Shown: one piece after another, positions 21,267-40,428 of the stretch
Numbering within the stretch: the stretch's first letter is position 1
How the letters are laid out: every line of letters begins with the position of its first letter
NCBI GenBank assembly: GCA_949751835.1
Contig: CATKHK010000028.1
Span: forward strand, 248,001-312,000
Length of the DNA: 64,000 nt
Direction of reading: 5' to 3'
Source of the DNA: Blepharisma japonicum
Lineage: Eukaryota > Ciliophora > Heterotrichea > Heterotrichida > Blepharismidae
Made by a program: the position numbers and the translations under genes
The notes under the pieces: model-generated
What the model saw: only the letters and a program-made list of their open reading frames with translations
Databases searched by the model: none
Told to the model about the DNA's origin: nothing

Positions 21267-23837
21267 ATGAATTGTGAAGAATGTTCAAATGCAATTGCCA
21301 AACTGTTATGTACTGAATGTGATGAAGCTCTCTGCACAAGATGTGATGAGGCTATACATAGAGGAGGGAAGAGAAAAACACACACAAGACTCCCTCTATG
21401 CCAAAACTGCAGGTCGTCAGCCTCTGATCAATGCAACACATGCCAACTTTTGTTCTGCGGAGAATGCAAACAGTCACACATTCAGCACAATCTTGTCCCA
21501 ATAATGCCTACAATTAAAACAGCTGTTTTGTGGGATTTAAATTCTTGTAAGCCTTATAAATCTGAAGACATCCAAAGAGTTGCCGGAAATATCAGAGAAA
21601 CTGCTCAGAACATTGACTGTTTTAAAGCTTACGGAGAAGCTTTCCAAAAGTGAAAAGGTCTTTTTACCTCAAGTGGCATAGAGTTCATACTGTGTGAAGG
21701 TCTCAAAGAAACCGAAGCACTTATGATTGACCTTCCAATAATTGGAACCAAAGGAATCACTGATATATTAATCATTTCTGCTCAAGCTTCTCAACTGAAG
21801 CCTTATTTATCTCAAATCCAAACAAACTTCCCATCAATCCGCATCCTTATCGCTCCCTCTATTTCCCCTTTGAATTTTGTAACAATCAGCCAGCTTGCCA
21901 AAGATCTTCCAAGATTTTCAAAACCTGACACTTTTACCACAAATTCCAATAGAAACTCATGCTCGCAGCTCAATATAAAGCCTATTGAAAAATTTACAAG
22001 CAGTCCTCTCAGTGCTGCCGTTAATCAATTTTTCAAAAAATACGGGCATGAATCTGCATGTGAAATTGTGATAAATTCGCTAAAAGAACTGGCTGAAACA
22101 GGCTTAATTATGCATGACGCTGCTTGGTTTACTCGTGCTTTAGCTCAAAGACACCAATTTTCTGTCGATAGGGCAGCAGATTACATAAATCTTGCTCAAA
22201 GAGCTGGGATTATTCATGTAAATGAGCGTCAGTTCGGAAACGTCAAAAGTATAAAATTCTGCAGCTTTAAGCTTGAAAGTGTCAGCTTAGAAAGCTTATT
22301 ATGGGTTTTAAGATCTCTAAGAATAGATGAAATGATGCCTACTGAAAGAGCGATCCAGTCCAGAATGAAAGAAGCTTTTGATTTCAAGCCATCCCCTTCT
22401 CAGTGGGAAAACCTTATTGACTCATGTAAAATGTATTCACCAAACAAGCACCAACACACAAAAAGCGCCCCTTCTGACAAGCCAGAAGCCAGTTTTTCAT
22501 TATTTGCAAGAAATTTATTGAGCAGAGATGAAAAAATCCCTGAATTTTCGCTATCAGAAGTAATTGACCCAGTGACTGGAGTAGAAACTTATCTAATTTA
22601 CCCAGTGGGAGAAGAATGGGAGTCTGTAGATCAGCTTATAAAGAATGGAGACAAACTTAGAATCAAGGCAACTAAAGAATGGGAAGCTTTTGTACAGTAT
22701 TTAGAGTCGTATTTTCTAGGATCACAAATCGATGACAATTTAGCAATTCCAGGTGGTAGGTATGGATGTGCACAATTTTTAAAGTTATGTGCCTCACAAA
22801 CATTGAAGAATTGTTCATTAGGAAGATTAAGTTATATGGTCCAGCTAGCTATTGATGAAGATTTATTGAGATACCAAAAGACACTACTTGTTTGGACTGC
22901 TGCTGCATCTAATAAGTCAGAAGAAGAAAATATGATGAAGCTTAGATTAGTCACCAAAGGAATATTAGATTTATTAAAAGAAAATAGGACAGGGATTTCA
23001 CTAGCCCAACTTCCACAAAATTTGAAAAAGAAGCTAAATTTCAGCTACGATATCACTGAGCTTGGGTTTTCCAAACTAAAAGACTTGCTGCTGACCATGC
23101 CAGAAGTAGAAATCGAGCTGAGAGGCTCAAACCATCCTTTTGCGACGTTAAAAAACCCTAGGAAAAGAAGATCTGATGAAACTGAACTTCTTGTTAAAGA
23201 AATGGACGATATTCTTGGTGACTTTAAACAAGGACTTCCAGGCAACAGAGTCGACAAAATGCTTCATGCTAAGCTTGGCCATTCGATCAACTGGACTGAC
23301 TATAAGTGCAACAATATTTATGATTTTGTCCAAAAAAGAGCCTCAGGCTCGTTTGCTGTAAGTGGAAATGGAGACTCCAGAACCATTATAAGCAAAAAGT
23401 CAATATCCTCTGATGTAGATACCAGAGATAGTGCTTCCTCAATGGAGTATTTTTTATCAAACCCAAGTGATTTGTTCTATATCCCAGATTCCCAGCCAAA
23501 AGTAATTAATGTTTCAAATCTGCCTCCTGAGCTTCAAGATAATATGCAGCAGCAAGCTCTAGAAGGCCACGCTGAGCAGCAGAGAAAGTTTATAGAAGAG
23601 CTGCTATATGAGGATGAAAATATTTCTAATACTTTGCATGGAGTTGATCCACCACATTATAGGACTGATAGTGTAGAGTATCACTGGAGCCCAATGTTTT
23701 CAAGCCAGATGGGCGAAACACACAAAAACAAAACGTTGAGTCAAGATTTTAATGGGCAGCTGAATGAGTACACACGAAAGCATCATTCTTCTTATGAAGG
23801 ATTCGGATTTTGCCCACCTCCTGGATTCGGCCAATAA
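21267..23837 (+). CDS. B-box / NYN-like / OST-HTH (LOTUS) protein, MARF1-like
   Basis: The protein has 856 residues with one TGA (Trp) at 21651-21653. Two Cys/His B-box-type fingers occupy residues 2-80 (CEECSNAIAKLLCTECDEAL; CQNCRSSASDQCNTCQ). Residues about 86-215 look like a NYN (PIN-fold RNase) domain: TAVLWDLNSCKP corresponds to the FWDIENC strand of MARF1, and ITDILIISAQASQL to the later strand that normally carries acidic residues. Winged-helix segments follow at about 255-395, 562-640 and 645-705, the last ones with OST-HTH/LOTUS character (GILDLLKENRTGISLAQLPQ; GLPGNRVDKMLHAKLG). Such proteins bind RNA and act in germline or meiotic mRNA control in animals. The later NYN acids are missing, so nuclease activity is doubtful. 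The order of domains is seen; the function is inferred. Confidence 0.75.
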
Positions 23838-23853
23838 TGTAAATAATGCGATT

Positions 23854-24591
23854 TTATGAAATTTTAAATTTAATAGTAATTAATTTTTCATGAATATACT
23901 TACATTCATACTCATTTGTATCAACTTCTTCTATATATAAGCTCTCTGGTATTGAATTATTTCAATACCCTGACGCAATTAAATTTCCTTCATCATTTAC
24001 TGAGCTGGTTACAATAATACTTGCATAAATACTTAACCTTTTCAAAAGCCCTTCCAGCTCTTTGCACAGCTCATTAGCTTGTCCTCAGTCTTCTATAGAA
24101 AAAAGTAAAGGGGAAATCCCATCTAATACAACTAAGTCATACGGGTTTGCCCGGCTCAATCCAAAGCATATGCAAATAAGTGATTTTATATCAAAACATG
24201 GCAAAGTTACTAAATTTTCATGATAATTCAAAGATTCAGCAAATGAGTCACAATTGCACTTTGAGATGTTTACATATAGCACTTTATTTTGATTTAATAA
24301 TGCATTAGAAACAGCTCTTCTGCAGAGCATTGTTTTCCCTTGTTTCGTCCTTCCTTGGATTTCTATTAATCCTTCACACGACTCTAAAACTTGGTCAAGC
24401 TCAAAAATCCCGAACTGAAACCTATTTTTCTTATCAATCAATAAATCAGCTGCAGAAGCTGGTATTGGTGCAATCTGAGCAGCAATTCCTGCATAGATAT
24501 CATCAAGATCTTCTTCATTATACTCAGAGTGCTGATTTAGCATCACATTTGTTACTCCTTTCCTAGAAAATTTAAATATGAAGTCTTCCAT
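23854..24591 (-). CDS. Small RAD51/RecA-paralog-like ATPase
   Basis: The protein has 245 residues with two TGA read as Trp. A short N-terminal region leads to a RecA-type core: Walker A GRTKQGKT at residues 80-87, a Walker B strand YDLVVLDGISPL near 151-162, and a late strand ASIIVTSSVNDEGN like the L2/ITNH region of RAD51 paralogs, followed by ASGYWNNSIPESLYIEEV, which resembles the GxxW...P ending of that family. The preceding FGIFELDQVLES matches the LDxLL entry to the core. It lacks the longer N-terminal domain of RAD51 itself, so a paralog of RAD51C/D or XRCC3 type, acting in recombination, is most likely. It sits 16 bp from the end of the previous gene, tail to tail. Confidence 0.65.
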
Positions 24592-30232: not shown

Positions 30233-31057
30233 TTAAATTAATCTGATAGCTAATGATAAATGGTCACTTGGATAATGTGGAGATGGAAGACCATTAGGCC
30301 CAATTTCTTCTAATGATGGGATTGAAAGGACACTTTGGATTTCGAAACCACGGAGCCATATATAGTCTTCAGTTTTTTTTTCAAGTGATGCTCTGATTTT
30401 TACTGTTGTATATGGAACTTCACCTTCTGAGAAAATGCCTCTATAAGCACTCCTCAGGCCAAGCTGGTTGTTAAGCATTTCTAAATGGGCTGGGTTTTCA
30501 GGCAAGCTGTTGAAGTCTCCACAAACGATTAAGCTTTTTGTATTGTCAATTGGTTCTAAATGTCTTAAAAGGGATCTGATCTGATTCACCCTTACATCTT
30601 CATAGGCTTTGTTTGCTTTCAAATGCAAAGCATAAACATAAACTTCTTTATTTGTCCATGTGTCTAGCAGCTTAGTCCCTAATGCAAATTGATTACGCCC
30701 TTCAAACTGACAGACTTCGTTAGAAATTGCAGTAAACCTGTTTACTTTATAAAATATCGCAGAGCCATCTCGATGCCATGACGGCTTTTTTTCAAAAAAT
30801 CCTGAATATCCAAGCCTTCGAAGTTCTGGCTCTAAGAAATCAGCATAGTGGTCAACCTCTTCAGCACAGAGAATATCAGGACTGAAACGTTCAATTTCAA
30901 TTAAAATCCTTGGGCTTCTAAAATTTCAGCTTAAAGTTTCGTCATTTACAGCAGGAAAATCGTTCGCTAGCTGGTCTGCCAGCATATTCCATTGCATTAC
31001 AGTTAAGCTGCTTTCACCTTCAGCAACTTGTACAAAAGCTCTAGGGAGAAGCTCCAT
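30233..31057 (-). CDS. Endonuclease/exonuclease/phosphatase enzyme, CCR4/nocturnin-like
   Basis: The protein has 274 residues with one TGA (Trp) in LSWNFRSPR. The EEP fold motifs are all present: VMQWNMLADQ (Asn), CAEEVDHY (catalytic Glu), LHLKA, VCGDFNS (Asp/Asn) and YPSDHLSLA (Asp-His pair). The WNMLADQLA start is typical of the CCR4/nocturnin/angel branch, whose members remove poly(A) or act on NADP(H). There is no leucine-rich repeat, and the length is close to the bare catalytic domain. It ends 1 nt from the Lon stop codon on the other strand. The exact substrate cannot be told from sequence. Confidence 0.85.
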
Positions 31058-36406: not shown

Positions 36407-37573
36407 TTAATTAGAAGCAGTATAACCCCTTAAGAAGTTTTTAATTAAGCCTAACAGTTCATTTGTGTGAAAACGATAAGCATCTTGGTTAAAAATAATT
36501 TTCTCTGCTTCTTTAGTGGCTCGCTTATGAGTACGTGTAAACCAAGGAACTAAAAAGATTTCACTAATTTTCCCTGCATAATTAGGATGGCCTTGAAAAC
36601 ACAATCACTTCCCTTGAACCCCAAAAATTTCATTTGGACAAGTGCTAGAGTATCCTCATCTCTCCCATCCACTTGGCAGGTTTACTACATTTTCTCCATG
36701 GTTTTGGGCAATTTTATATACTTCTCTTGTATTTTCAAATCTCATTCTAAATTCATTTGTTGTAAATACTGTTTCATATCCTAAAATATATTTATTTCTC
36801 ATTTTTCTTACAACTCCACCAAAAGTATTTGCAATAATTTGAGCACCTAAACAGATTCCAACGACTTTTATATCAGGGTAATCCTCATTAATTTCCCTTA
36901 AAACATTTTTTAAATTAATCAGTCAATTAAATTGATGATTTGCAGAAAATTTTCCACCTAGTAAAATGATGCCTTTTATAGTTTTAAGAGCTTCTTTACA
37001 AGGAAGCTGACCATTTACTACAAAATAATGTTGCCATCTTTCAAAAGGTTGGGAAAAAATGCTGGTTGACCATGTCTCCAGAAATCCACAAATATTAGAT
37101 TCCTCCTCAAAAAAATGGAATACTGCATAATCAGGGCTATTGTATATAACAGGCAAGGGATAATGGATTTCTTGATTATTCAAGGCTTTTTCTAGAAATT
37201 TATATTCTTGTGACAGATAATAATTAGAAATCAAGATTTCTTCATTTGCAACTAAGCTTGGGCTTGCTAAAATTCCATCAGATAAATTATCAATAGGAAT
37301 ATAAATTGTGTTGTCTGATGTATAATATGAAAAATAAGTAACATGGACCATCACTAATTTAGTTCTGTTATCCCATATTCCTTGAAGAGAGTCTCATTCA
37401 TTTTGCGAGTAATGTTTGAGTTCATATCATTCTATAATTGCTCTAGCTGCTGCCATTTGGACTCCTAGCTCGCATTCAGTTATAATATATACGATTGGTT
37501 CACAAGTGAAAATAATGTTATTTTCAACTAAATAAGGAATAACGTCTAAAAGCATTTTAATTTTATTTCCCAT
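36407..37573 (-). CDS. Class I glutamine amidotransferase-like protein, triad incomplete
   Basis: The protein has 388 residues with several TGA read as Trp. The C-terminal 220 residues have the class I GATase layout: IKGIILLGGKFSAN near 197, the nucleophile elbow VVGICLGAQIIANTFGG with Cys near 241, and FQGHPNY with His near 329. The residue two after this His is Asn where the family has Glu. The first 140 residues do not belong to the usual domain and start MGNKIK, a possible but weak myristoylation signal. Stand-alone GATases of this kind act on amines or as gamma-glutamyl hydrolases. With the triad acid missing, activity is uncertain. The ATG at 37573 is the first in the frame. Confidence 0.75.
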
Positions 37574-39048: not shown

Positions 39049-40428
39049 ATGAACATAATTAGTTTAAATTGTAATGGGCTTCACAGCTATTCTTCCAAAT
39101 TTCCCTCTTTTGAAGATATGCTTGATTCATTCAACGCTGATATTATTTGTCTCCAAAAAATAAAGCTCGCACGAGAAAAGCTCCAACCAGAGCTCATCAA
39201 TCTTAACCGCTACTACGCATTTTACCAATTTTCTCAAAGTAAAACAGCAAATGGAGGAGTCGCCACATTTTGTAAAAAAGATACAGCATGTCCTGTCTTT
39301 GCAAAAGAAGGCTTTCTACAGCCTGAAAATAAAGATCATGACTTAGAAGGCCGTTGCCTTGTTACAGATCACCAAGAATTTATATTATTCAATGTCTATT
39401 TCCCAACTAATGGAAATGGTGAAAGAATTCCTTTCAAGTCTTGGTTTTTCTACATAATTCAATATGAAATGGAAAAGCTTATCAGTGAAGGAAAAAATAT
39501 AATTTTAGCGACTGATTTGAGCTTCTCACATCATGAAATTGACCATCATGACCCTGACTCAACTTTAGCAGAAATGGGGCTTGATTCATTTAATGAGCAT
39601 AGAGGACGGCAGTGACTTACAATTTTATTATCTTCTGATCGATTTTTTGATGCTTATAGACTATTATATACGAACCAAAAAGGATATACTTACTTTAAAA
39701 CCCCTGAAATGAAAGCTGAAAATAAAGGCTGCAGGTTAGACTATTTTATAGTCTCAAAAAAAATAGCCGATCAATATGTAGAAGACCTAAAAATTTTGCA
39801 GCATAAAATCCCAAACTTACCTTCTGACCAAGTTATAGGTCATTGCCCTATAAAATTAACCTTATCTAGCTATCATAGTGCAATCCCAAGTGAGCCACCT
39901 ACAAGTTGCGCTAAATTTTATAATGAATTTTCCTTTGAGAAGCATAGAAGTTTAAATATGTATTTTCATGGTGAAGAAGCTAAAGAAATTTGTAAAAAAG
40001 TCAAAAGATCAGGGGTAGAGCCAGAAACTCCCAAAAATAATGAGAAATTTAATAAGAAGTTTGAGATGGATGGGGTAGAACTTTGCACTCATGGGGAGCC
40101 TGCTATTGTACAAGAAGTTAAAAAAGAAGGCAAAAATAAAGGAAGGCCTTTTTTTACATGTTCAAGGCCTCCTGGACATCCTAGAGATCCTGAAGCTAGA
40201 TGTGGTTTTTTTAAATGGGCTGATGAAAGCAAAACTGCACCAGTTTGTGAGCATGATATGCCTGCAGTTGTAAGGAGAGTACAAAAAGAAGGACCAAACC
40301 ATGGAAAATGATATTATAGATGTAAAAAAAACATGAACCAAGGACAGTGTGGGTTTTTTAAGTGGGCTGATGCTTTGAATAATCAAATGAGAAATGATAA
40401 AAAACGTCAAGAATCAAAAGAAGAATAA
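39049..40428 (+). CDS. APE2-like protein with two GRF zinc fingers, catalytic residues altered
   Basis: The protein has 459 residues with TGA (Trp) at 39613 and 40309. The first 280 residues align by eye with AP endonuclease 2 (exonuclease III family): SLNCNGLHS, NADIICLQKIKL, NGGVATFCK, LFNVYFPTNG, ATDLSFSHHEIDHHD, RLDYFIV, GHCPIKLTL. Key sites differ: Lys37 replaces the metal-binding Glu of CLQETK, Ser158 replaces the Asn of GDLN, and Gly264 replaces the Asp of SDH. Two Zf-GRF modules follow (Cys346-about 391 and Cys400-about 441), each with C-x-H...C...C and GFFKWAD; human APE2 has one. GRF fingers bind single-stranded DNA. It is probably a DNA-binding pseudo-nuclease acting in base-excision repair or ATR signalling; that role is inferred. 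Confidence 0.85.

Follow-up and report, generated by a model that had tools for sequence, protein, structure and literature searches.

A Blepharisma APE2 orthologue has lost catalytic residues and probably binds DNA rather than cutting it

What does an APE2 protein do when its catalytic residues are gone? The question is raised by a gene on the plus strand of a 64,000-nucleotide stretch of Blepharisma japonicum DNA (hereafter the window; positions 248,001 to 312,000 of CATKHK010000028.1), which is part of a 45.2-Mb genome assembly (contig C28 of G000). A preliminary description of this gene, at 39049–40428, had proposed that its product, here called pseudo-APE2, lost cleavage and kept DNA binding, and that it may act as an ATR/ssDNA adaptor or in programmed DNA elimination. 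Our analysis supports this proposal in part, since the catalytic residues were found to be lost and the fold and the GRF zinc fingers kept. We consider it likely that pseudo-APE2 is the Blepharisma APE2 orthologue, that it has been a pseudonuclease since the shared ancestor of Blepharisma and Stentor, and that it holds DNA without cutting it. Judged from its sequence, the protein probably binds DNA rather than cutting it, because the residues are lost, the fold and fingers are retained, and Stentor shares the same three changes.

The gene comprises 459 codons and a stop, and no intron is needed to read it. The frame stays open only if TGA is translated as tryptophan, at two in-frame codons (Trp189, 39613–39615; Trp421, 40309–40311). 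In Blepharisma stoltei, UGA is reported to encode tryptophan and introns to be 15–16 bp long (PMC9942806). The closest named relative, B. stoltei P0002 (459 amino acids), is 95% identical and aligned ungapped from end to end, without any intron-type gap. The domain scan of pseudo-APE2 returned an exo/endonuclease-phosphatase (EEP) domain and GRF only. The EEP domain covers amino acids 1–272 (39049–39864) and carries the altered catalytic site. PF06839 (GRF) matched two stretches (E 2.2e-29), finger 1 (40084–40218; ligands C346, H348, C371 and C385) and finger 2 (40246–40365; ligands C400, H402, C425 and C434); both ligand sets are complete (CHCC and CHCC), and the two fingers are thus intact, as previously described. 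A degenerate PCNA-interacting (PIP) box-like segment, HRSLNMYF, lies at amino acids 299–306 (39943–39966). The predicted structure had a mean pLDDT (predicted local distance difference test score) of 88.7, and its top structural match was Xenopus APE2 (6wcd); the GRF pair matched the tandem GRF of NEIL3 (5.7e-19) and the Xenopus-type APE2 GRF entry 5u6z (6e-13).

APE1 numbering was assigned to the catalytic site from motifs and from alignment to APE2, APE1-type and ExoIII proteins. At APE1 N68, E96, Y171, D210, N212, D283, D308 and H309, pseudo-APE2 reads N-K-Y-D-S-D-G-H, so that five residues are canonical: N7 (N68), Y117 (Y171), D156 (D210), D231 (D283) and H265 (H309). The three changes and their positions, already listed in the preliminary description, were confirmed by the codons and the alignment. 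Lys37 (AAA, 39157–39159) takes the place of the Mg2+-ligand Glu (E96), Ser158 (AGC, 39520–39522) that of the Asn holding the nucleophile water (N212), and Gly264 (GGT, 39838–39840) that of D308. According to PMC3852660, the Mg2+ of APE1 is bound by D70 and E96, two of its waters by D308, and the candidate attacking water by D210 and N212; the N212/D210 and metal contacts are described likewise in PMC12557600 and PMC5785985. At the D70 position, the other APE2 rows of the alignment and the Blepharisma protein have Asn, and the readable Stentor-like rows have Ser or Ala. Because the E96 and D308 places are Lys and Gly and the D70 place is Asn, the predicted metal site is without any carboxylate; one of the two water ligands is also gone. 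The position of Lys37 is presumably that of E48 in human APE2. For human APE2, the double mutant E48Q/D197N serves as the catalytically dead form (PMC9900424), and in APE1 activity is reduced 2300-fold by E96Q and 5-fold by D308A (PMC3852660). Amino acids 67–69 (39247–39255) are Ala-Asn-Gly in place of the Gly-Tyr-Ser of other APE2 and ExoIII rows. This GYS loop contacts DNA in APE1.

To see who shares the Lys, Ser and Gly (K/S/G), we aligned 149 of 168 proteins collected from the best 120 of 127 and the best 120 of 1699 search matches, leaving out 19 lower-ranked ones. Of its 149 rows, 18, the query among them, belonged to one group and 131 did not. K/S/G was present in ten rows (P0001–P0010), among them B. 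stoltei P0002, Stentor coeruleus P0010 and the unnamed P0003–P0009; all ten belong to one clade of 11 rows, and none of the 131 others has K/S/G. Among the matches listed, only one protein was named S. coeruleus and one B. stoltei, and many had no name. At all eight positions the 131 other rows had the canonical residue throughout, apart from gaps (six at N68, one at E96, two at Y171). That the three codons are an artefact of sequencing, assembly or splicing has practically no chance of being true, as Lys, Ser and Gly recur in two separate proteins, those of B. stoltei and S. coeruleus, and in seven unnamed rows; sequencing error, which the preliminary description had named as a way to overturn its reading, is excluded by these independent relatives. 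We also considered an intron or frame artefact at Gly264, where an upstream Ser-Asp before QVIG-HCP resembles a split SDH, and rejected it because the Stentor-like rows read GFGH or AFGH directly.

Other relatives differed from the Blepharisma protein to varying degrees. The environmental P0012 and P0014 have the full canonical set, and the partial P0124 agrees with it wherever readable. P0123 differs only by N212→G, and the partial P0125 has the same change, with the D308/H309 part missing. In P0011 and P0122, N212→G is joined by Y171→H, and the Glu and Asp are present. P0012, P0014, P0123, P0011 and P0122 share the two-finger architecture of pseudo-APE2 and belong to the same 16-row clade (100/99), although in P0012 and P0014 the ligands of finger 2 are CCCC. 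Since a second finger is found in all five of these relatives, the doubling of GRF most likely preceded the catalytic loss. By a simple pattern, 112 of the 131 other rows have one finger, 16 have none and three have two. Within the K/S/G rows, P0008 was without finger 2, the junction falling exactly at a repeated FKWADE motif; either a deletion between the repeats or a collapse of the repeat during assembly may account for this.

We then placed these proteins in a quick tree of 53 rows and a careful tree of 46 rows from which the active-site columns had been removed. The two trees agreed in the main, and the pseudo-APE2 group formed one clade in both (100/99 with 16 rows in the 46-row tree; SH-like approximate likelihood ratio test (SH-aLRT) 82 with 18 rows in the 53-row tree). 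In the 46-row tree, a 100/99 split set the 16-row clade and 22 other APE2 rows apart from ExoIII and the genome's five APE1-like genes; the branch with the 22 other APE2 rows on one side had support of only 80/91. All 11 Lys rows fell into one clade (98/95), for which a single E→K change suffices. Tree placement with APE2 rather than APE1 or ExoIII, together with the best structural match to 6wcd, assigns the protein to the APE2 orthologous group, and the C-terminal GRF finger of that group is present twice. Active APE2 has E, N and D at APE1 E96, N212 and D308, where pseudo-APE2 has K, S and G. It also differs from APE1, which is EEP-only with NEYDNDDH, in its GRF fingers and its NKYDSDGH. 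Compared with APE2/APEX2/Apn2 of Xenopus (6wcd), human and yeast (Apn2), the Blepharisma protein is shorter, has a second GRF finger, has exchanged the active-site E, N and D for K, S and G, and has lost the PIP glutamine.

Constraint was assessed by branch lengths in 36 rows whose topology was fixed (EEP, 259 columns; GRF1, 50 columns). The ratio of EEP to GRF1 length was 1.06 in the 11 Lys rows and 1.15 in 20 other APE2 rows, giving a double ratio of 0.92 with a wide bootstrap interval (2.5–97.5%, 0.64–1.39, n = 100); without P0013 it was 0.97 (0.63–1.68). No relaxation of EEP relative to GRF1 was therefore seen in these 36 rows within this wide interval, by a test that compares two domains, differs from the ratio of nonsynonymous to synonymous substitution rates (dN/dS) and is blind to joint relaxation of both. 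Scans of viral_contigs (21 stretches, no relative) and of genome_contigs (594 stretches and 206 relatives, with bacterial or archaeal titles on the 80 kept) yielded no heterotrich DNA. Blepharisma and the Stentor-like rows were 57% identical in EEP and 69% in GRF1, which speaks against joint relaxation; in GRF2 they were 47% and in the linker 29% identical. Counting as conserved a site with the same residue in at least 95% of the 131 others, and as changed one where that residue occurs in at most 20% of the ten K/S/G rows, 10 of 52 conserved sites were changed (37, 67–69, 155, 158, 263, 264, 299 and 344). Within the EEP domain, 8 of 41 were changed, every one of them within or next to a catalytic motif or in the GYS loop. 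Catalytic sites make up 3 of the 8 changed sites and 5 of the 33 others, counts too small for us to claim an enrichment.

The sole APE2 found in this genome appears, by its sequence, to be catalytically dead, and Blepharisma and Stentor have both conserved this state. The preliminary description had called for a search for a second, active APE2. We queried the genome with P0001, with P0095 (the APE2 of an animal, Xenopus tropicalis), with P0012 (intact, two-finger) and with PF06839, in searches that ignore introns and score the best candidates only, and no other gene combining EEP and GRF was found. The matches were pseudo-APE2, five APE1-like genes, a weak EEP match on C5 (E 0.0019) and a one-finger protein at C35:346757. 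PF06839 matched only the two fingers of pseudo-APE2 and the latter protein, a stand-alone open reading frame of 150 amino acids (stop to stop) with a single GRF finger, in which we saw no nuclease domain. PF03372 matched 32 places, of which we inspected the five APE1-like ones (on C29, C11, C18, C28:317962 and C1). All five read NEYDNDDH in stop-to-stop translations, and this expanded set may have taken over the nuclease work of APE2. One of them (C28:317962) lies about 6 kb past the end of the window.

How might pseudo-APE2 work? GRF fingers bind single-stranded DNA and the PCNA C terminus (PMC9900424, PMC6122073). By analogy with known APE2 and GRF proteins, the tandem fingers would grip single-stranded DNA and the EEP cleft would rest on a nick or 3' end, with no useful nuclease activity. 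Attachment to PCNA could be through the degenerate PIP segment, a GRF finger or both. Gapped DNA would thereby be protected or marked and partners recruited, which might include checkpoint partners, and the five intact APE1-like enzymes would do the cutting. Two adjacent GRF fingers are also found in NEIL3 (7omk, 7jl5), where they aligned with those of pseudo-APE2 over 94 residues. NEIL3 is a DNA glycosylase (Endonuclease 8-like 3 in the PDB) and has its glycosylase domain upstream of the tandem GRF; pseudo-APE2 has none. A role in genome rearrangement would be a guess; Paramecium has a parallel in catalytically incomplete PiggyMac-likes that still matter on knockdown (PMC9942806).

Several observations weigh against DNA holding by a dead enzyme. 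Of the PIP consensus QxxLxx(F/Y)(F/Y), L302, Y305 and F306 are present, and the Gln at position 299 is His, Lys or Leu across the ten K/S/G rows; the PCNA step is therefore weakened. The exonuclease activity of Xenopus APE2 is itself required for ATR-Chk1 activation (PMC6122073), and in BRCA1-deficient human cells PIP and GRF deletion mutants rescued viability whereas the catalytic-dead form did not (PMC9900424). As both systems depend on catalysis, a catalysis-free role appears to be without direct precedent in them, and both argue against pseudo-APE2 simply copying those roles. D210, D283, H309 and Y171 are kept in all ten K/S/G rows and N68 in seven of the eight readable ones (P0006 has Thr). 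Their retention would not be required of a fully non-catalytic protein, with the qualification that 33 of the 41 conserved EEP sites are likewise unchanged by the criterion used. The GYS loop differs also in P0012, P0014, P0123, P0011 and P0122, and its change is therefore, on the alignment, older than the catalytic loss and independent of it. Conservation is lower in GRF2 than in GRF1, species names are attached to only two rows of the K/S/G clade, and the intron-blind genome search may miss a split APE2 gene. Finally, P0013, of the same clade, has decayed further: it keeps K37 and has lost the residues at D210, N212, D308 and H309.

P0013 also speaks for a gene decaying under relaxed constraint after catalytic loss, as do the faster divergence of the linker and GRF2 than of GRF1 and the blindness of the rate test to joint relaxation. 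The placement of P0013 is unsure, next to Blepharisma (95/79) in the 46-row tree and outside the ten in the 53-row tree; if inside the clade, it is a further decayed copy. Against decay stand the open frame, the full zinc ligands, the EEP identity between Blepharisma and the Stentor-like rows and the lack of EEP relaxation relative to GRF1, and we regard it as very improbable. The conserved lysine invites another reading, in which the protein is still an enzyme and Lys37 replaces Mg2+ or acts as a nucleophile. All 11 clade rows without the Glu have Lys and no other residue, and the rest of the site is mostly kept in ten of them. Yet the E96Q substitution by itself lowers APE1 activity 2300-fold (PMC3852660), the equivalents of N212 and D308 are missing too, and Lys occurs at the E96 place in none of the 131 comparison rows, so an altered enzyme seems distinctly improbable. 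It is somewhat less doubtful, and still speculative, that the ammonium group of Lys37 stands at the Mg2+ place and makes the protein a metal-independent clamp on 3' ends and gaps, or a trap for abasic sites through the lysine, with no cutting. The phosphate pocket facing Lys37 is otherwise largely retained (N68, Y171, D210, D283 and H309). If true, such a clamp would be a built-in brake on end resection in cells whose genome is cut, during development, at many sites.

The EEP domain could instead be a protein-protein docking surface like that of Pseudomonas Crc, with only the GRF fingers contacting nucleic acid, possibly RNA and not DNA. Crc has an ExoIII/APE fold without DNA nuclease activity, keeps the D283 and H309 equivalents and has lost N212, and its EEP fold matches that of the predicted structure of pseudo-APE2 (a comparison of fold only). 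GRF fingers are not known to be part of Crc. Crc is also bacterial and represses translation with Hfq (entry title 8bvm). In Crc, D210 is replaced by Ser and N212 by a bulky Tyr, which occupies the place of the phosphate, whereas pseudo-APE2 keeps D210 in all ten K/S/G rows and has a small Ser at the N212 place. A docking surface is thus an unlikely alternative, though one with some claim, and we retain the DNA-holding pseudonuclease as the likely reading.

The preliminary description had compared pseudo-APE2 with a nearby EEP enzyme at 30233–31057. Its site does look intact by eye, but the gene is on the minus strand and nocturnin-like (best-scoring relative 51% identical, one partial relative 59%, mammalian nocturnins 40%) and is not an AP endonuclease; the proper comparators are the five APE1-like genes. 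We tried this neighbour as a rate comparator and rejected it: its eleven best-scoring relatives were 47–51% identical and carried no name, and no protein named B. stoltei was among its 30 matches. The window also encodes an 856-amino-acid protein (21267–23837, plus strand) with a B-box zinc finger, OHA and OST-HTH/LOTUS, the segment between being maybe NYN-like, by eye only. A 245-amino-acid protein (23854–24591, minus strand) has a GRTKQGKT P-loop, is RAD51-paralogue-like by eye and had no Pfam match. A 388-amino-acid protein (36407–37573, minus strand) has a class-I glutamine amidotransferase domain in its C-terminal half.

We found no literature on ciliate APE2 in a search whose coverage excluded most subscription journals; the only co-mention was in a review on RNA in DNA breaks. 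Work on APE2 treats it as a nuclease, and reviews link its catalysis to ATR-Chk1 signalling and to the survival of BRCA1-deficient cells (PMC6122073, PMC9900424). The non-catalytic contacts of APE2, those of GRF with single-stranded DNA and PCNA and the binding of Chk1, are difficult to tease apart from cutting. Loss of the catalytic residues in a lineage that keeps the rest is a natural separation-of-function experiment. Its relatives supply graded intermediates, from the canonical site through loss of N212 to loss of E, N and D, and the setting is that of ciliates that cut and rebuild their somatic genome.
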